NCBI RefSeq assembly: GCF_018860635.1
Contig: NZ_JAHKPT010000025.1
Coordinates: forward strand, 1 to 64,000
Direction: 5' to 3'
Source of the DNA: Aliiglaciecola lipolytica
GTDB taxonomy: Bacteria > Pseudomonadota > Gammaproteobacteria > Enterobacterales > Alteromonadaceae
DNA length: 64,000 nt
Positions 219-8,155 of this stretch are shown here, in pieces. The notes beneath the pieces are model-generated. The model searched no databases, was not told the origin of the DNA, and was given only the letters and a program-made list of their open reading frames with translations. Within the stretch, counting starts at the first letter, position 1, and every line of letters starts with the position of its first letter. The position numbers and the translations under genes were made by a program.

Positions 219-275
219 AAATTTCAGGCACAAAAAAACCAACTAAAAAGTTGGTTTAATGTTTGGTACCAGAGG
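219..275. repeat. Direct repeat copy B of tRNA-Leu 3' end plus terminator
   Basis: Second member of the 57-bp direct repeat (first copy at 1-57). Here the repeat covers the terminator and the last dozen bases of the intact tRNA-Leu gene, so this copy is the resident one. Confidence 0.85.
232..257 (-). terminator. Rho-independent terminator of tRNA-Leu
   Basis: On the minus strand, directly after the tRNA CCA end, a 9-bp perfect stem AAACCAACT/AGTTGGTTT with a TTTT loop is followed by a T run. Position and structure fit an intrinsic terminator for the tRNA transcript. Confidence 0.8.
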
Positions 276-350
276 CCGGACTTGAACCGGCACACCATTA
301 CTGGCGGCGGATTTTGAATCCGCTGCGTCTACCAATTCCGCCACTCTGGC
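264..350 (-). tRNA. tRNA-Leu (anticodon CAA)
   Basis: The minus strand folds as an 87-nt class II tRNA with encoded CCA. The acceptor stem GCCAGAG pairs with CTCTGGT (a G-T pair at the first position). The anticodon stem GCGGA/TCCGC encloses loop TTCAAAA, giving anticodon CAA for the UUG leucine codon. A long variable arm and the T-loop sequence GTTCAAGTC are present. The long variable arm and length of 87 support leucine identity. A terminator follows at once, and the 3' end is duplicated at 1-57. Confidence 0.95.
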
Positions 351-526: not shown

Positions 527-871
527 CTAAGCGTAAGTATCAACAGTTAACAAACTATCAGAACTGGATTTTTGTCCGCTAATTTGAGAAAGCGCGTTAA
601 GAAATTGACTGCCTTTTTCCTCATCACTTAGCTTATCTGCCTGAGACTTATTGCTATCCAGAAATGATTTCAATTCCGCTTGTTGATCTTTAGATAAAGA
701 ACTCAACATGGATGTCACTTGCTCTTGCTGCTCAGATGATAAAGACGCCACTGATGACTCAAGACCTGGCGGCACTGCACCTTGTGGCGGTGGTGGCGGA
801 CGTCTTTGTTGAGTATCATCCATGTTGATATCTGACATATTGATTGAACTGCTTTGACTATTAATTTGCAT
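527..871 (-). CDS. Small proline-rich protein with LSxxQQ repeats (unknown function)
   Basis: This encodes a 114-residue protein without an obvious signal peptide. Residues 23-29 are RRPPPPP. After that come three evenly spaced helical motifs, LSSEQQ, LSKDQQ and LSDEEK, which recall the LTxxQ motif of Spy/CpxP chaperones, although I cannot assign it to that family. The C-terminus is rich in Ser, Asp and Gln. It starts 14 bases after the end of the 886-1149 gene on the same strand, so the two are probably cotranscribed, divergently from the two-component system. The function is not known to me. Composition and context make it a plausible real gene; homologues near BaeSR-like systems would confirm it. 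Confidence 0.65.
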   Translation of the reverse strand: MQINSQSSSINMSDINMDDTQQRRPPPPPQGAVPPGLESSVASLSSEQQEQVTSMLSSLSKDQQAELKSFLDSNKSQADKLSDEEKGSQFLNALSQISGQKSSSDSLLTVDTYA

Positions 872-885
872 TGTTCGCTCCGGTA

Positions 886-1149
886 TTAGTTATTGTCTTC
901 AGATCTGCGCTGTCCATGCCCTTCCGGCACAGCTACAAGTTCGTCTTGCATGGTTTGGCAAGTAGCGGTAATGGTATCACCACGGGGCGTACTGAAGCTC
1001 ACTTCATCGCCTTCACTTTTTCCTTCACAAGCTTCGAGTGCTTCTTGTGGAGGCTTACCACCTCGCCCTTCTCTATCTGGCTTTGCTAGCGTTAATGGGC
1101 TGACTAAAACGGAACTCAAAATCAAAAGTGTCATCACTGATTTTTGCAT
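886..1149 (-). CDS. Small secreted protein with a two-cysteine EACEGK domain
   Basis: An 87-residue protein starting at the ATG at 1149, preceded by GGAG; a TTG two codons upstream is a poorer start. Residues 1-22 form a signal peptide ending in LTLAK, so the product is exported. The mature part contains ALEAC(E)GK, a TPRGD turn and a second Cys in ATC. The pattern ALxACxxK...GxC resembles that of the secreted protein at 4613-4921, which has four cysteines. It is the first gene of a probable two-gene minus-strand unit and faces the sensor kinase gene across a shared control region. Its function is unknown; periplasmic partner or reporter of the system is an inference. Confidence 0.72.
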   Translation of the reverse strand: MQKSVMTLLILSSVLVSPLTLAKPDREGRGGKPPQEALEACEGKSEGDEVSFSTPRGDTITATCQTMQDELVAVPEGHGQRRSEDNN

Positions 1150-1221
1150 ATACAATTCTCCAAAATTAAAAGATGTAAACGATTAAATTGACTATTTTCA
1201 CTGGTTAAAGGTTAACAAATG

Positions 1222-1240
1222 AATGTGCAGAAAGTGTGCA
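1222..1240 (-). promoter_or_regulatory. Candidate response-regulator binding site, copy 1
   Basis: On the minus strand this reads TGCACACTTTCTGCACATT. It matches 17 of 19 bases of the element at 3532-3550 upstream of the YHYH gene. The core is a direct repeat of TGCAC spaced 11 bases, as expected for OmpR-family regulators. It lies between the divergent starts of the sensor kinase gene and the small secreted protein gene. Confidence 0.55.
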
Positions 1241-1313
1241 TTTACCGTGGAATAAAGCGCTACTTCAGCTTTTGTGACTAGTGCAAGCCAAATTCACCCG
1301 ATATACTTGCGCC

Positions 1314-2792
1314 ATGAAAATGACAACTAAACTATTTTTGATTTTATTGGGCCTTATCACCACTATGCTGGTGATTTCTTTAAGCCTTGCCCAGTGGAGC
1401 TTTAAACAAGGATTTCTGGAATTTGTTTCTGGTATCGAACAAAGCCGTCTTGAGAAAATAAGTAACGATGTACTGGCGCAATATGTATTGTCCAAGAACA
1501 GTTGGGAAGACGTTCAACGGATTGGTCTGGAAGACTTTATCAACAACAATAAACGTTTTAATTCTCCGCCAAAACATCCGCCCATGAATAATAGAGGTGG
1601 TGGAGAGCGGCCAAGACATGCTCCGCCTCCCCACCAGCAACTGCTTGCCAATAGGCCTAACGAGAAACCCAATCCAGGTGCGCCCTGGCGGGATAACACG
1701 TCCGGCCCTCCAACGGGGTTATTCGACGTAAATGGCGCGCTACTTTCAGGTGATGACCACTCAGATAATAGTCAGAACTCGTTTAGCTATCCATTGTATA
1801 TAGATAATATAAAAGTGGGCGAACTTAGAAGCTGGCCAAGCATTGAAGGCTCCTCTGAGTCAGCAAACCTATTTGCGCAAAAACAATTTTCTGCTTTTTT
1901 AATTATTGGACTCGTCTGTTTAATTTTGGCCGGCTTGCTGTCACTGTTGGTATCTCGTAAATTGTTGCAGCCCATCAAACTAATTATGCAAGGTGTTTCC
2001 CAACTTAGTAGCGGCAATTACGCTGTTAATCTCACCACAAATCGCAAAGATGAACTTGGCGAACTAATGGATAACGTTTCCTACTTAAGCCAAACCTTAA
2101 ATAAAAACCGCTCTGCCAAAAATCGGCTTTTTGCGGATATTTCTCACGAATTGAGAACTCCGTTAACAGTGCTAACCGGTGAAATTGATTTATTAAAAGA
2201 AGGGGTTAGACCCTTTAACTTGAAAAATTTACTATCTCTGGAACAGGAAACTGAGCGTCTAAATCATCTGGTTGAAGATTTGTACCAACTATCTCTATCG
2301 GATGTGGGAGCATTGAAGTACTCCATGGTTCAGACAAACTTATCCGAAACTGTTGAACGCTGCATTCAAAGTGTTAGCCAGCACGCAGGAGCAAAGTCGA
2401 TAAAAATAACTGCCGACATTCAACACAATATTATGATGACCATGGATAATAGGCGAATTGAACAACTGTGCTTGAACTTGCTAATGAATTCCATTGCATA
2501 TACAGATACGCCTGGGCAGATAGATATAGCTTTATCGGTACAACAAGAGCACATTAGCTTACGCATCAACGACTCCAAACCATCAGTTAAACATAGCGAT
2601 TGCGAGAAGCTATTTGAACCCATGTTTAGGTTAGATTCATCGCGCACCAGCAGAGAATCCGGTGCAGGATTGGGTCTTACAATTTGTAAAAATATTGCAG
2701 AAGCCCATCAGGGGCAAATTAAGGCATCACCATCTTCGCTAGGTGGCTTATGTATCGAAGTAATGTTTCCGTTACCAAGGGGTGAAAAGTGA
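1314..2792 (+). CDS. BaeS-like sensor histidine kinase with a Pro/His-rich periplasmic domain
   Basis: Membrane histidine kinase of 492 residues. I chose the ATG at 1314; a GTG at 1281 would add eleven residues before the first membrane segment. The order is TM1 (about 6-26), a periplasmic domain (about 27-190) with an unusual Pro/His/Arg-rich stretch (PPKHPPMNN, RPRHAPPPHQQ), TM2 (about 192-212), HAMP, the DHp helix with ISHELRTPLTVL (His278 as phosphoacceptor), and an ATPase domain with LCLNLLMNSIAYT (N box) and SGAGLGLTIC (G box). It resembles BaeS in layout. The stop overlaps the GTG of the response regulator gene by four bases, so the two are coupled. The signal is unknown; the His-rich segment makes a metal ion possible but unproven. 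Confidence 0.9.
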   Translation: MKMTTKLFLILLGLITTMLVISLSLAQWSFKQGFLEFVSGIEQSRLEKISNDVLAQYVLSKNSWEDVQRIGLEDFINNNKRFNSPPKHPPMNNRGGGERPRHAPPPHQQLLANRPNEKPNPGAPWRDNTSGPPTGLFDVNGALLSGDDHSDNSQNSFSYPLYIDNIKVGELRSWPSIEGSSESANLFAQKQFSAFLIIGLVCLILAGLLSLLVSRKLLQPIKLIMQGVSQLSSGNYAVNLTTNRKDELGELMDNVSYLSQTLNKNRSAKNRLFADISHELRTPLTVLTGEIDLLKEGVRPFNLKNLLSLEQETERLNHLVEDLYQLSLSDVGALKYSMVQTNLSETVERCIQSVSQHAGAKSIKITADIQHNIMMTMDNRRIEQLCLNLLMNSIAYTDTPGQIDIALSVQQEHISLRINDSKPSVKHSDCEKLFEPMFRLDSSRTSRESGAGLGLTICKNIAEAHQGQIKASPSSLGGLCIEVMFPLPRGEK

Positions 2793-3475
2793 ATCAACAA
2801 AAACATGTTCTGATTGTTGAAGATGAGCCCAAGATCGCTCAAATCTTAGTTGAGTTTTTACAACTAGAAGATTTTCAGGCTACCGTTTTACACGATGGCA
2901 AAAACGTAATCGAGTTTGTCAAAAAACACTCCCCTGACTTCGTTATTCTGGATGTCATGTTGCCGTTTAAAGATGGTTACACTCTATGTAAAGAAATTCG
3001 TCAATTTTCCACGGTTCCGATTCTGATGTTAACCGCCAGAGTAGATGAAATAGATAGAATAATGGGCTTAGGAATTGGAGCCGATGATTATGTTTGCAAA
3101 CCTTTTTCCGCCCGAGAAGTGGTAGCAAGAGTACAAGCCATATTGCGTCGATTTGAACAACAATCGATTTCCTTAGACAATGTAGTTACCTATAAAAATA
3201 TTCAACTGGATTTAGCTCGTCACCAGACCACAGTAGCGGATGTTCACGTTGAATTAACCCCGGTGGAATTTAGGTTATTACTGGCCTTAGTTAAGCGTCC
3301 TGGCGTGGTATTTTCACGCGACCAACTAATGAATACCTGTTATGAGGATGAGCGAATTGTTAGCTCACGTACTATTGATAGTCACATGAAAAATCTAAGA
3401 GCTAAATTACAAATAGGTCAATCCGCAAATCCCCTGCTACATTCAATTTATGGCGTTGGTTATAAAATCGAATAA
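2789..3475 (+). CDS. BaeR-like OmpR/PhoB-family response regulator
   Basis: A 228-residue response regulator starting with GTG inside the kinase stop region. The receiver domain (about 6-117) has the acidic pair in IVEDEP, Asp55 in VILDVMLP as phosphorylation site, the Thr in LMLTAR and the Lys in CKPFSAREV. The C-terminal winged helix (about 128-228) has VELTPVEFRLL and ends in SIYGVGYKIE. It is closest in feel to BaeR. It most likely binds the TGCAC direct repeats at 1222-1240 and 3532-3550, which would give autoregulation and control of the YHYH lipoprotein gene; this is inference from position and repeat spacing. Confidence 0.92.
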   Translation: MNQQKHVLIVEDEPKIAQILVEFLQLEDFQATVLHDGKNVIEFVKKHSPDFVILDVMLPFKDGYTLCKEIRQFSTVPILMLTARVDEIDRIMGLGIGADDYVCKPFSAREVVARVQAILRRFEQQSISLDNVVTYKNIQLDLARHQTTVADVHVELTPVEFRLLLALVKRPGVVFSRDQLMNTCYEDERIVSSRTIDSHMKNLRAKLQIGQSANPLLHSIYGVGYKIE

Positions 3476-3531
3476 GTACGGGCAGCGAATCTTCCAAGGG
3501 CTTTAAAATTCAATCAAAAACACACTTTATT

Positions 3532-3550
3532 TGCACAGTCTCTGCACATT
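3532..3550 (+). promoter_or_regulatory. Candidate response-regulator binding site, copy 2
   Basis: TGCACAGTCTCTGCACATT, 17 of 19 bases identical to the minus strand at 1222-1240. The two TGCAC half-sites start 11 bases apart. A TATGCT that could be a -10 box lies at 3558-3563, so the element would overlap the -35 region, the usual place for an OmpR-family activator. It controls the YHYH gene at 3605 if real. Confidence 0.55.
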
Positions 3551-3604
3551 TCGTCGCTATGCTTTCGCTCATTCAAATATTGAGTACAAAGTAGAGGCTC
3601 TAGA

Positions 3605-4597
3605 ATGCAAAAAAAATCATGTTTTGCTCTATCATTGATAATTAGCAGCGTATTGTTATACGGATGTAATGGCAGCCAAACAGATGATGTCACTGTTGAT
3701 GATGGAAGTAGCAGTGACGACAGTTCGCTGACAACCCAATCTACTTTCGACCCAGATGTGTTTCACGATGGTGCGCTACTTGAAACCCCTACCATTGAAA
3801 ACTGCACTTTATCAGGTGGAACCTCAACGACTTGCTACCGGATCACTATCGCTGGCGAGCCTGTCACAACGGACATCGGTCCCTTTTGTCCTCCTACTAT
3901 TTATTCCGATGCCAGTGAAGGAGGAATCTGGTTTGACGGTTCAGGGGAAGTGTATGATATTGATGGCGAATTTATTCTCAATCTTGCCAATCTCTACGGC
4001 GCCGATTGGCAACTTTATGATCCTGAAACAGGCAACGTCAATGTAACCAATACGCAAGCTTCTTGCGAAGGTGCGGCCCGCCCGAATGTTGCAGAAGAAT
4101 ACCAAAATCACTGTGTCGAATGCTCACTCACTTACTTTGGTGGTGCAGTGTCTCAAACCTTTTTAATCCCCGTTGAACCCGTTGCAATGAGCAATCCCGA
4201 CAGTATCAACAATAACGATTTGGGAATAACAGTTAACGGCGTGGTGTTAGCTCCTCCTGCTCCTGTTGACGCTATTCTTGCAGCCAATACCATCGCTGCG
4301 TTTGATGATTGTGGTGGACACATCAATCCGTTTGAAGGCTACCACTATCATGCTTCAACTGGTTGCACAGAATCGGTATTTCAAGACGACAATCACGCCA
4401 GTTTATTAGGTTATGCCATCGACGGATACGGTATTTATGGAATGCTAAATATGTCTGGCGAAGAAGATTACGACTTGGACGAATGTCGTGGTCATAGTGA
4501 TGACACTAGAGGCTATCACTACCATTCGGCGAGCGCTGGAGAAAATATGTTTATCGGTTGTTTCAAAGGTGAACAAGGGTACTTGGTTAGCGAGTAA
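3605..4597 (+). CDS. YHYH-domain lipoprotein
   Basis: A 330-residue exported protein. The N-terminus has a lipoprotein signal with lipobox LLYGC (Cys21), followed by an acidic Ser/Asp linker. The C-terminal half carries the family signature twice: EGYHYHAS and RGYHYHSA, together with DGYGIYGM between them and FDDCGGHINP. This identifies the YHYH domain family, whose biochemical role is not established; the conserved His-Tyr-His clusters suggest a metal site. Several cysteines may form disulfides. It follows the two-component genes with a 129-base gap containing the candidate operator, and is followed by a small secreted cysteine protein after 15 bases, so those two are probably one transcript. 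Confidence 0.85.
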   Translation: MQKKSCFALSLIISSVLLYGCNGSQTDDVTVDDGSSSDDSSLTTQSTFDPDVFHDGALLETPTIENCTLSGGTSTTCYRITIAGEPVTTDIGPFCPPTIYSDASEGGIWFDGSGEVYDIDGEFILNLANLYGADWQLYDPETGNVNVTNTQASCEGAARPNVAEEYQNHCVECSLTYFGGAVSQTFLIPVEPVAMSNPDSINNNDLGITVNGVVLAPPAPVDAILAANTIAAFDDCGGHINPFEGYHYHASTGCTESVFQDDNHASLLGYAIDGYGIYGMLNMSGEEDYDLDECRGHSDDTRGYHYHSASAGENMFIGCFKGEQGYLVSE

Positions 4598-4612
4598 TTA
4601 TTTAAGGATAAA

Positions 4613-4921
4613 ATGATGAAAAAATATGTATTGATAGTTGGATTAGTTGCTTTTAACAGTGTTGCTCATCAAGGGCACATTGACGATACAGCATTACAAG
4701 CATGCGCTGAGAAGGCTATAGCAACCCCTTGTGGATACGTGTCAGCCAACCTACAACTACACAAGGGCAGCTGCCAACAATTTAATCAAAATCTTATTTG
4801 TGTGCGGAATAAACCCCTTGAGACAGTGACGGACGAGAAATTGGCTAAGCTCAGAGCCGAGGGTGAAGTTGCCATATCGACTTGGTTGTCGAAACGACAT
4901 GCCTCCCATAAAGGACACTAG
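4613..4921 (+). CDS. Small secreted four-cysteine protein
   Basis: A 102-residue protein with an N-terminal signal peptide (MMKKYVLIVGLVAFNSVAH) and four cysteines in the pattern ALQAC...ATPCG...KGSCQQF...LICV. The ALxACxxK start, GxC middle and hydrophobic LxxV end match the smaller protein at 886-1149, which keeps only the first and third cysteines, so the two look like distant paralogues. The C-terminus is His-rich (KRHASHKGH). It sits 15 bases after the YHYH gene and is likely cotranscribed. Function unknown; periplasmic or secreted location is inferred from the signal peptide. Confidence 0.75.
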   Translation: MMKKYVLIVGLVAFNSVAHQGHIDDTALQACAEKAIATPCGYVSANLQLHKGSCQQFNQNLICVRNKPLETVTDEKLAKLRAEGEVAISTWLSKRHASHKGH

Positions 4922-5733: not shown

Positions 5734-6702
5734 TTACGCTGCTTTGTAACCTTTCCAGAAGTTCTTAAATTTTTCTTGGGGCATAATCGAGCCGCGATGA
5801 TTAGTGACCTCTTTGGCAACTGCAGCCGCTTTTTCGATGGCACTTTTCATATCTAAGCCTAGGATTCTTGCTCCAAGGTAAACACCAGCAAAAGCATCGC
5901 CAGCTGAAGTGGTATCGATAACGGCGGGATTAGGGGCAACTTGCACTTCACAACATGCATCTGAGGAATAGCCGAAAACACTCTTCGAGCCATCTTTAAT
6001 AATCAGTTCATCAAAGCCACAACTATTTAAAAATTTGACAATTTGTTGCCGTTGTCGCAACCCAAATAGTTCGAAGTCTTCCATTCCCGGCAATAAAATA
6101 TTGGCTACCTGAAAACCCTGACCTATGGCATTTTGGGCGACTTTTTCGTTTTCCCATAAAGCGGGGCGATAATTTGGATCGAATGCAATATTGACACCTT
6201 TATTACGCAAACGACAAAGCATATGCAGTAACTGAGCACGATCATTGTCATTTAAGATAGCTAAGGTGATACCGGAAAAAAAGATTAATTGGCAATCTTG
6301 AAGGGCTTGTTCGGCATTTTTTGACAAGTTCTGCATTAACAATTTAGCCGCAGAGTCGTTGCGCCAATATAAAAAAGAACGCTCACCTTGATTATCTGTT
6401 TGCACCATGTAAGCACCCATAATACGCTTTTCATCTACTTCGATAAAACGATTATCTAAGCCTTCTAATTGCAACATATCGAGCAGTTGTGTGCTTACAG
6501 TATCGCTGCCAATGCAACTCATAAAATTAACATTTAATTGCTCAAAAGCACGTTTCATATAAACACTGCTATTAAAAGTATCCCCAGCAAAGCCCTTATG
6601 AAACTTGTCATCTCCGTATTGACTTAGCTCCATCATACATTCCCCAATCATGACAATAGGTTTTGAAGAATATATCTGCGAATTATCACTTTGTTGCACC
6701 AT
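5734..6702 (-). CDS. kdgK: 2-dehydro-3-deoxygluconokinase-type PfkB sugar kinase
   Basis: A 322-residue PfkB/ribokinase-family kinase. I prefer the ATG at 6702 over the GTG at 6732. The N-terminal motif IGECMMEL followed by GFAGDTFNSSVY is typical of KdgK, which phosphorylates 2-keto-3-deoxygluconate to KDPG for the Entner-Doudoroff aldolase. The C-terminal signature DTTSAGDAFAG holds the catalytic Asp and the anion hole. It is a cytoplasmic enzyme of uronate, alginate or pectin breakdown. No other pathway gene (eda, uxu, kdu) is nearby. A FadR-type regulator is encoded divergently, and its operator-like sequence lies upstream at 6846-6856. Fructokinase is the alternative, but the N-terminal motif favours KdgK. 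Confidence 0.82.
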   Translation of the reverse strand: MVQQSDNSQIYSSKPIVMIGECMMELSQYGDDKFHKGFAGDTFNSSVYMKRAFEQLNVNFMSCIGSDTVSTQLLDMLQLEGLDNRFIEVDEKRIMGAYMVQTDNQGERSFLYWRNDSAAKLLMQNLSKNAEQALQDCQLIFFSGITLAILNDNDRAQLLHMLCRLRNKGVNIAFDPNYRPALWENEKVAQNAIGQGFQVANILLPGMEDFELFGLRQRQQIVKFLNSCGFDELIIKDGSKSVFGYSSDACCEVQVAPNPAVIDTTSAGDAFAGVYLGARILGLDMKSAIEKAAAVAKEVTNHRGSIMPQEKFKNFWKGYKAA

Positions 6703-6845
6703 TATCCAGCTCACTTGTTTGTAAAACCACACCTAGATCATGAAGATCTGCTAATTATGTCCAGTTTCTGTCGATTCATATTGAATAAAAACCGCCAACA
6801 ACAAACTAACCAAAACAGAATGATAACATTACCAATTACAAATAT

Positions 6846-6856
6846 TGGTCATACCA
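6846..6856. promoter_or_regulatory. FadR/UxuR-type operator candidate
   Basis: TGGTCATACCA fits the FadR-subfamily GntR consensus TnGTnnnACnA exactly and resembles UxuR/ExuR sites (TTGGTATACCAA). It lies about 145 bases upstream of kdgK and is the best candidate site for the regulator encoded at 7424-8155. Confidence 0.5.
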
Positions 6857-6928
6857 CAATATTATGATCACAAATTAATGTCGATGGGTTTGAAATATAA
6901 AGATTTAAAATGAGAGAGAGGGAAATTA

Positions 6929-6944
6929 GGCCACCGAGGTGGCC
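6929..6944. repeat. GC-rich perfect palindrome
   Basis: GGCCACCGAGGTGGCC is a hairpin of 7-bp arms around GA in an otherwise AT-rich intergenic region. No T run follows on either strand, so it is not a clear terminator. A dispersed repeat or a binding site is possible. Confidence 0.4.
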
Positions 6945-7423
6945 TCCGCAGGGTACGCGGGCATGAGTAAGTTACCTGAACAAACCGCATTGTCAACCAA
7001 AACATAAAAAAGGTATAACCAAAAATACCAAATCCAAATAAAACAACTAAATCAAATGGTCAGGTATTTGTTTATGAAATCTAGGCTTGTTGAAATCATT
7101 ATTGCTGAGAATTATTATTGCTAAATAAAATTGAACACTTAACAAGATTCGTAAACAGAATAAGGTGTAGACTAGTACAAAATAAAAAGTATTTAGCCAC
7201 TTAAAATTGTATTAAATCAATTGCTCTGCACGGTAAGATCCTTAACTTAATCTTGCTTACCAATGTATTTCTCAGTTGCTTGCTCAACTTAGTACAGTTA
7301 GCACGTTGGGCTATACAAATTGGCATTGCAGTTAAGTACGCGTACAATTTGCATTATTATAGATGCAGACTCTGGCTAATTGTTCTTTGCTGTATAAATT
7401 TTGTTTCAGGAAAAATTTAGAAA

Positions 7424-8155
7424 ATGAAAAATCGTCGTATGTTTTGGCAGATTGTAAGTAAAATTGAATCACAGATTGACGCTGGCCGTTACCCTGTGGG
7501 CAGTCGCCTTCCACCAGAAAGAGAATTAGCAGAAAACTTTGAAGTCAGTCGCCCTACTATTCGAGAAGCGATAATTGCGCTAGAAGTAAGAGGCAGAGTT
7601 GAAGTAAAAGTGAGTTCAGGTGTATACGTCATTGATACTGCATCTAAAGGCGAATCTACGCCCAACATCAGCGCATTTGAATTAACACAAGCGCGCGCTT
7701 TAGTTGAGGGAGAAGCAGCCGCCCTTGCTGCATTATCAATTACCGATAAAGAACTCGAAGCACTAGAGAAAACGTTAAAAGCAATGGAAAATGGCGATGA
7801 GCCAGAAGCCGCTGATCGCGAATTTCATTCGATTATTGCTACTGCAACTCGCAATACAGCTTTGCTTTATTCGATACAACATTATTGGACGTTACGTGAG
7901 TCTCAGCCACAAATTGTTGCTGCATATAAAGGTGTATGTAGTAGTAGTGTTCAAGATCGTCTTGAAGAACATAGACGCATCTATTTGGCACTGAAAAAGC
8001 ATGACTCTCAAGAAGCACGAGCGGCTATGCACGGCCATTTTCATCGTTTAATTAATTCATTATTTGAAATATCTGAAGCCGAAGCATTGGAAGAAGTCAG
8101 AAAAAAATCCAATGAAACCCGTGATCGTTATTCTTTGACTCACTTGGTCGGTTAA
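7424..8155 (+). CDS. GntR-family (FadR/UxuR-type) transcriptional regulator
   Basis: A 243-residue regulator. Residues about 8-72 form the winged helix-turn-helix with RLPPERELAENFEVSRPTIR, the family signature. Residues about 85-220 form the helical FCD ligand domain with metal-binding candidates in ADREFH, LEEHRRI and MHGHFH. The FCD order is that of UxuR/ExuR-like repressors, which sense uronates or related sugar acids. Its divergent neighbour is the KdgK-type kinase, and TGGTCATACCA lies between them. I infer that it represses kdgK and possibly itself. The ATG at 7424 has no strong ribosome binding site. Confidence 0.85.
   Translation: MKNRRMFWQIVSKIESQIDAGRYPVGSRLPPERELAENFEVSRPTIREAIIALEVRGRVEVKVSSGVYVIDTASKGESTPNISAFELTQARALVEGEAAALAALSITDKELEALEKTLKAMENGDEPEAADREFHSIIATATRNTALLYSIQHYWTLRESQPQIVAAYKGVCSSSVQDRLEEHRRIYLALKKHDSQEARAAMHGHFHRLINSLFEISEAEALEEVRKKSNETRDRYSLTHLVG

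Follow-up and report, generated by a model that had tools for sequence, protein, structure and literature searches.

A conserved two-component cassette of Aliiglaciecola lipolytica as the probable control locus of a dispersed YHYH regulon

Introduction

In the CpxP-CpxA system, a regulated small periplasmic protein is encoded divergently from the two-component genes. Promoters with a PhoB box contain two 11-bp direct repeats just upstream of the -10 element, which replace the -35 element. Here we describe a locus that recalls both arrangements, a cassette at positions 527–4921 of a 64,000-nucleotide stretch of Aliiglaciecola lipolytica DNA (NCBI RefSeq assembly GCF_018860635.1, contig NZ_JAHKPT010000025.1, positions 1 to 64,000 of the forward strand; the whole stretch is referred to as the window). 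The cassette contains genes for a sensor kinase (HK), a response regulator (RR), a lipoprotein with a YHYH domain, two small exported proteins with conserved cysteines (CYS1 and CYS2) and a proline-rich protein (PRO).

The small protein DbfQ of Vibrio cholerae binds the sensor domain of its kinase and shifts the kinase towards phosphatase (PMC12714742; this and the other sources given by PMC number are cited for the available part of their text). For YHYH domains in phages a Zn site was predicted and a Zn-dependent hydrolase was proposed (PMC7824862), and families listed for diatoms include YHYH (PMC11992049). No tested function of YHYH proteins was found in the open-access literature searched, nor any paper on the regulation of YHYH genes. 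Genes for CotH, a polyphosphate polymerase and DUF4956 proteins adjoin Pel clusters in Gram-positive bacteria (PMC7112168), and the available part of a study on Clostridium perfringens in which CotH and VTC genes also appear (PMC2879425) contained nothing further for this system.

Results

Conservation of the cassette

CYS1 (divergent), HK, RR, YHYH and CYS2 were found together, in the same order and orientation, in 13 of 196 genomes of the family; one of these cassettes (G105; G and L numbers are our labels for genomes and loci) contained an inserted extra YHYH gene with its partner. YHYH relatives were present in 39 of the 196 genomes and a kinase orthologue (E ≤ 1e-75) in 22. The kinase neighbourhoods were examined for all 22, with genes called as longest open reading frames (ORFs): a YHYH gene was located within about 5 kb of the kinase in 17 genomes, and a CYS1-like gene adjoined the kinase in 19. 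The YHYH genes beside HK-RR were of four kinds (grouped by hand), and in G009, G075, G144 and G177 the YHYH gene within about 5 kb was of another kind than in the cassette. The weakest kinase match was that of G018 (37%).

The best 80 of 234 matches of a YHYH alignment search, all in named loci, were examined; those nearest to the window were from Aliiglaciecola sp. 3_MG-2023 (88%) and A. lipolytica (78%). Six loci were dropped, as no YHYH ORF was called at the match, which left 74 usable loci. A CYS-like gene was present at most 700 bp from YHYH in 56 of them, and no YHYH-CYS fusion was detected among their YHYH ORFs. HK and RR were both found within 6 kb in 18, with RR identities of 53–92% in 16 loci (including Woeseiaceae, Gilvimarinus and Thalassotalea) and 31–37% in two. 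An earlier note on this DNA, made from the sequence alone, had stated that its reading would fail if the YHYH and small Cys genes mostly stood apart from the two-component genes and were expressed independently of the regulator. The first half of this applies: among the 74 loci YHYH and its Cys partner usually lie away from two-component genes (HK and RR near YHYH in 18 loci, a CYS-like gene in 56). YHYH with a CYS2-like gene was also found in Sulfurovum, Myxococcales and Sphingorhabdus, in each case with no such kinase pair in the sequence examined (some contigs being short). Since YHYH-CYS2 is spread broadly without the pair, we infer that it is probably the older unit and that the kinase pair later came to govern it. 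A class-wide kinase search gave matches in 25 of 369 genomes at E ≤ 1e-60. In the 20 places examined no YHYH gene was called near the kinase and a CYS1-like gene was present in two (L206 and L209); these places mark the edge of the family.

A direct-repeat box at cassette promoters and unlinked YHYH genes

An 11-bp direct repeat, CTGCACAnTTTCTGCACA, was found before CYS1 and before YHYH, in both cases with a TAnnnT -10-like element at a fixed distance. A search of the window for TGTGCA-N5-TGTGCA with at most one mismatch gave two matches, only in the CYS1/HK gap and before YHYH (expectation 0.40; two were reached in 8 of 100 shuffles). The repeat recurred upstream of cassette genes across genomes. 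Exact TGTGCAGNNNNNGTGCA occurred three times in the 5.03-Mb genome of the window, in the CYS1/HK gap, before YHYH and before an unlinked YHYH gene. The 13 cassette genomes contained 22 exact sites, 17 of them at YHYH or CYS1/HK promoters (coordinates compared by hand) and five elsewhere (one each in G141, G054 and G161, two in G089), compared with three sites for the reversed control and four in 13 family genomes without the cassette, which are somewhat smaller on average.

A matrix was trained on ten CYS1/HK promoters only and applied (score ≥14 within 250 bp) to the PF14240 genes of 12 cassette genomes; G164 was dropped (same species), and a weak G149 match that barely passed the PF14240 cut-off (25.4 bits) was left out of the count. 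PF14240 places were used for the counts; a separate YHYH profile falsely flagged the CotH lipoprotein of L147. A matrix site was found before 28 of the 46 YHYH genes, with a single orientation relative to the gene throughout, compared with 1 of 496 control genes from these loci and 0.09% of 2300 dinucleotide shuffles. Eleven of these genes belonged to cassettes (of 13 there) and 17 were located elsewhere (of 33). For the G149 cassette YHYH gene, a full box was present just beyond the 250-bp range.

The TAnnnT element, which was not used in matrix training, begins 16 nt downstream of the first base of the second half-site. In the YHYH promoters its T, A and T were present in 25, 27 and 23 of 27 sequences (one of the 28 was too short), and in the CYS1 promoters in 10 of 10 at each of the three positions. 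By our own reading of these positions the box would cover the -35 region, and the PhoB-like arrangement of a repeat box at fixed spacing from the -10 element was seen in the alignments. With the same box at both units and at unlinked YHYH genes, the exported proteins appear to be regulator outputs. The earlier note had proposed such outputs, and the predicted box and -10 element at fixed spacing, carried by both CYS1-PRO and YHYH-CYS2, support this well in silico. The operators also speak against a regulator-independent expression of the YHYH and Cys genes.

Predicted targets of the regulator

A full-box pattern (at most one mismatch) was searched in 21 genomes with this type of kinase (type I; types II and III are described below). 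Among 51 sites, 50 of which were checked gene by gene (G129:C9 was counted among the others), 24 were located before YHYH genes, 12 before CYS1, one upstream of HK (G177), three before CotH-kinase genes (G000, G009 and G144), one before a VTC-DUF4956-Porin_O_P operon (G116) and ten elsewhere. Nine of the 12 CYS1 sites were assigned by gene calls and three (L196, L049 and L044) from locus inspection; the identities of CotH, LTD-CotH, VTC, DUF4956 and Porin_O_P are Pfam assignments. Thus 41 of the 51 sites were at YHYH, CYS1/HK, CotH-kinase or VTC-DUF4956 promoters. The reversed-pattern control gave 8 sites in total, so the ten other boxes are at about chance level. One of these ten, with one mismatch (L321:5885, G177 contig 6), lies 41 bp before a gene for a 520-aa exported protein and may be a further target rather than a chance match. 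The 20 sites with no mismatch comprised 13 at YHYH, five at CYS1, one at CotH and one in G121, at a place without a CotH gene.

Single loci gave examples of unlinked or exchanged targets. An unlinked YHYH gene with a matrix site of 18.8 was found in G160, and one with an exact full box in G065. G339, from another family, contained an unlinked YHYH gene with a full box and two CotH genes, one of which had a correctly oriented matrix site with a score of 21.0. In G116 CYS1 is followed by an LTD-CotH gene that has matrix sites before it. The partner genes also differed by YHYH kind, being CYS2, weak-EF-hand exported proteins, MORN and SCO1-SenC proteins, or unnamed exported proteins. The MORN-repeat and SCO1-SenC proteins follow one YHYH kind in L157 and L164 (Pfam) and in L158, L165, L172 and L196 (by likeness), a hint of chemistry that involves copper or thiols.

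CotH as a universal target was rejected, CotH genes being present in 3 of 13 and 11 of 20 genomes searched (G161 is in both lists). CotH genes of G009 and G339 had matrix scores of 20 or more in the right orientation; that of G144 had a full box and that of G116 a matrix score of 18.3 (both judged from larger loci). The site at the G007 CotH gene was in the wrong orientation, pointing to the kinase operon, and the CotH genes of G161 and G167 and one of two in G173 had too little upstream sequence to be judged.

Three further observations were made at boxes or related repeats. In G000 contig 18 a CotH lipoprotein gene (L147:1849-3456) carries a perfect full box. In a sister species (L185, G121 contig 9) the box is kept, no CotH gene was found in that genome, and a REP-type-transposase-like gene is located nearby. 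A conserved TGTGCATAAAAAGTGCA was detected at L154:6652 and L183:6297, with the same 17-mer in G089, G117, G054 and G161; this site precedes the gene of a TonB-dependent receptor (assigned by Pfam in L154) but is oriented away from that gene and has no full box.

Sister systems

Ten genomes contained YHYH without a type-I kinase at E ≤ 1e-75, and all had a response regulator 47–53% identical to RR. In 7 of 11 regions around these regulators, a kinase-regulator pair was accompanied by a small exported EF-hand-like protein and a Pro-rich protein; the EF-hand was tested by Pfam in one of the seven (L307) and assigned by reading in the others. The EF-hand protein replaces CYS1 in this sister (type-II) system, and divalent cations are for this reason no more than a fair guess for the signal. 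The type-I PRO and the type-II Pro-rich protein gave an HHalign probability of 49% over 14 columns, and homology is not claimed. Eight of the 11 regions had a matrix site of at least 13, mostly TGTGCAA-type, and where such a site stood before HK it pointed to the kinase operon. In L309 the genes and sites form a row of YHYH, box, Pro-rich protein, EF-hand protein, RR, HK, box and CotH, the second box pointing to the kinase operon and not to CotH. A box variant in another type-II genome (L310:8422-10671) is located between the kinase and a divergent gene for a 640-aa exported protein and likewise points to the kinase operon; by our own reading the 640-aa protein looks like a choice-of-anchor I or alkaline-phosphatase-like protein.

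Type III accompanies PEBP-YHYH proteins of about 750 aa (domains were scanned for one), with a motif of roughly TACATAATTGCCCYACATTTG in five of six. The operators mostly follow the type of system, with TGTGCAG in type I, TGTGCAA in type II and roughly TACATAATTGCCCYACATTTG in type III; exceptions were the type-II locus L309, with TGTGCAG before YHYH, and the type-I locus L196, with TGTGCAA before the kinase. The RR tree placed type I, together with one unassigned row, in a clade with support of 98/93 and type III in one with 100/100; type II did not form one clade with confidence. A type-III pair with a PEBP-YHYH gene was also found as a second kinase-regulator pair in G000 contig 29 (L037:332-5418), where the PEBP-YHYH frame is broken by one TGA; its relatives are uninterrupted, with about 730–760 codons.

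Genes and proteins of the cassette

The six ORFs described in the earlier note were all recovered, with the kinase, regulator and YHYH domains (Table 1).

Table 1. Genes and predicted promoter elements of the cassette, in window coordinates.
Feature	Coordinates	Strand	Description	Basis
PRO	527..871	-	114-aa Pro-rich protein, no evident signal peptide	ORF; no Pfam family over cut-off
CYS1	886..1149	-	87-aa exported protein, two invariant Cys (C41, C64), divergent from kinase	ORF, alignment
Box of CYS1-PRO promoter	1209..1240	-	Predicted regulator box and -10-like element (TGCACACTTTCTGCACATTCATTTGTTAACCT), 60 bp before CYS1	0 mismatches to full-box pattern
HK	1314..2792	+	492-aa BaeS-like sensor kinase, Pro/His/Arg-rich periplasmic loop	Pfam HAMP, HisKA, HATPase
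RR	2789..3475	+	OmpR/PhoB-family response regulator, BaeR-like	Pfam Response_reg, Trans_reg_C
Box of YHYH-CYS2 promoter	3532..3563	+	Predicted regulator box and -10-like element (TATGCT), 42 bp before YHYH	0 mismatches to full-box pattern
YHYH	3605..4597	+	YHYH-domain lipoprotein, 330 aa, two YHYH motifs	PF14240, 58.6 bits
CYS2	4613..4921	+	102-aa exported protein, four invariant Cys, partner gene of this YHYH subfamily	ORF, alignment

The YHYH match is well above the PF14240 cut-off of 25 bits. RR contains the receiver and winged-helix Trans_reg_C domains of the OmpR/PhoB family (97.9 and 71.9 bits). Compared with the nearest named NCBIfam models, HK scored 312.9 bits against BaeS (equivalog cut-off 500) and RR 293.5 bits against BaeR (cut-off 380), so that the earlier description as BaeSR-like stands for the nearest models and not for equivalence. 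HK starts with ATG, and a GTG at 1281 opens the same frame too; for CYS1 the ATG at 1149 is a more likely start than the TTG at 1155. The predicted structure of the HK sensor had a predicted local distance difference test score (pLDDT) of 72.7 and a predicted template modelling score (pTM) of 0.45, with residues 83–89 and 91–129 under pLDDT 50. Its best match was an integrative WalK-YycH model (E 1.4e-6), and a BaeS fusion (5wvn) gave E 0.16; these fold matches are too weak to name a ligand.

In the YHYH lipoprotein, ten Cys including the lipobox Cys are invariant among 15 aligned relatives. Its AlphaFold2 model (pLDDT 82.0, pTM 0.76) had no good match among solved structures (best Foldseek E 1.2), and its sequence had no relative among them (best E 0.16). 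A second fold comparison with 402 chains gave a best Z of 2.2, mostly over residues 49–191, and 2 of 149 matches in a viral structure library were at E ≤ 0.001 (a 'YhyH protein' and an unnamed protein). These poor matches do not show a new fold. The YHYH proteins are perhaps metal-dependent enzymes at the cell surface.

CYS1 and CYS2 were found to be homologous (HHalign probability 96.6%, E 4.9e-10, 43 columns), a point that is new relative to the earlier note. The invariant Cys of CYS2 are C31, C40, C54 and C63; C41 and C64 of CYS1 are the counterparts of the first and third, and counterparts of the second and fourth are lost. The joint loss of these two suggests that the disulphides of CYS2 would be 1–3 and 2–4. 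CYS1, CYS2 and PRO matched no Pfam family over cut-off, and alignment scans did no better for CYS1 and CYS2; at E ≤ 0.1, no PepSY match was found in 10 CYS1 members and no LTxxQ-type (CpxP) match among 10 CYS1 and 17 CYS2 members. By our own reading PRO has no visible signal peptide and is therefore probably not a Sec export. PRO is probably co-transcribed behind CYS1, and its identity in seven other loci was 46–88%.

Downstream, a KDG-kinase-like PfkB gene and a GntR/FCD regulator gene (window 5734–8155) suggest that uronates are used; they have no relation to the cassette. The first ~56 bases of the contig (window 1–56) recur at about 221–276 beside a tRNA-Leu gene (264–350, minus strand), and this terminal repeat perhaps explains why the contig ends there.

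Discussion

The cassette is a genuine, conserved unit, and quite likely it is the locus that controls a dispersed YHYH regulon. Conservation, operators, fixed promoter geometry, the swapping of targets and the homology of CYS1 and CYS2 are all shown in silico. In the mechanism that we propose, the kinase would sense an envelope signal and phosphorylate RR, which is predicted to bind the two 11-bp direct repeats (CTGCACAnTTT CTGCACATTT) standing in for the -35 element. Bound RR would then activate promoters with a -10 element at fixed spacing. Its putative targets comprise CYS1-PRO, the YHYH-CYS2 operon next to it in the cassette and unlinked YHYH genes that belong to other subfamilies and have partner genes of their own; some species would add CotH-kinase lipoproteins or the VTC-DUF4956-porin operon. 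CYS1 would give feedback, probably by binding to the sensor or to the output proteins, as suggested by its position and by analogy with DbfQ and CpxP. The earlier note had considered the exported proteins as possible modulators and a metal or redox signal as plausible; CYS1 may be such a modulator, and the signal may be a metal or a redox change.

Several findings weigh against this proposal. Pseudoalteromonas and Colwellia-like genomes contain YHYH-CYS2 without this kinase, for which one would have to invoke a sister system whose box is degenerate. No site was present within 250 bp of 18 of the 46 YHYH genes; four of the 18 belong to the sister type-III system, and one is among the two YHYH genes in the G105 cassette. 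Two further YHYH genes of G065 were also without a site. In G106, HK-RR has a matrix site before HK and neither CYS1 nor YHYH nearby, and the sole full-box match of this genome sits within an unrelated gene. Among 15 CotH matches in the 20-genome search, seven had no site. Many of the genomes are congeneric, so that counts are not independent, and the motif was first noticed at the two promoters of the window, whose YHYH site inspired the search.

Compatible with control of a dispersed regulon, and in our view possible if somewhat unlikely, is a metal or redox homeostasis module, in which YHYH-CYS2 would bind or oxidise a metal that the kinase reads directly. The ten invariant Cys and the two YHYH motifs seen among 15 relatives, the SCO1-SenC and MORN partners of one YHYH kind, the EF-hand protein in place of CYS1 and the Zn site predicted in PMC7824862 are all consistent with it. 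However, no metal transporter or efflux gene was found among the 41 assigned full-box targets, and the YHYH model has no solved-structure match from which a metal site could be read across.

The box could also belong to a more global regulator, with the two-component pair merely one of its targets. Such a regulator would account for the box in the upstream region of the kinase itself and for a related box at YHYH-CYS2 genes in genomes without a type-I kinase, but exact sites are concentrated in cassette genomes (22 in 13, against 4 in 13 without the cassette), direct repeats of 11 bp are characteristic of OmpR/PhoB regulators, and operator variants mostly follow the type of two-component system, L309 and L196 excepted; we consider this explanation unlikely. 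A strict BaeSR envelope-stress system with YHYH as a passenger gene is very improbable, since BaeS and BaeR are the best NCBIfam models but both proteins score well under the equivalog cut-offs, the box is unlike that of E. coli BaeR, and four YHYH kinds recur beside the pair, which is not how a passenger behaves.

Control of a dispersed YHYH regulon by this pair would have consequences for the YHYH proteins, which are found in bacteria, diatoms (PMC11992049) and phages (PMC7824862), as the regulator offers a route to YHYH function. A predicted regulator with a sharp operator provides a handle on YHYH genes and makes them testable. The boxes suggest that YHYH and CotH, two obscure surface families, may answer to one switch in several genera. 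A wider and rather doubtful proposal is that this kinase-regulator family in marine Gammaproteobacteria commands a surface programme of YHYH lipoproteins, CotH-type secreted kinases and VTC/DUF4956 polyphosphate-type genes, which would build a phosphorylated, cation-binding surface or matrix, with the small Cys or EF-hand proteins informing the kinase of the cation or redox state of the periplasm.

Comparison with known systems

BaeSR provides the nearest named models for HK and RR, and the box of the cassette is a different one. The layout of the cassette box is that of PhoB boxes, whereas the half-site, CTGCACA, and the regulator differ. The divergent orientation of CYS1 and HK-RR resembles that of CpxP and CpxA, with the difference that CYS1 belongs to another, Cys-containing family. 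No paper on this system was found by title in a search of the open-access literature for a TGTGCAG direct repeat with a response regulator. DbfQRS, a relative of BqsRS/CarRS of Pseudomonas aeruginosa, likewise has a gene for a small periplasmic protein beside the kinase-regulator pair (PMC12714742); DbfQ is a PepSY protein, whereas CYS1 matches no PepSY model and the predicted targets here are YHYH genes. In the gene groups described for Pel loci (PMC7112168, as far as available) CotH, polyphosphate polymerase and DUF4956 genes occur together, whereas here CotH, VTC and DUF4956 genes are found behind full boxes, as predicted targets of one two-component system together with YHYH.

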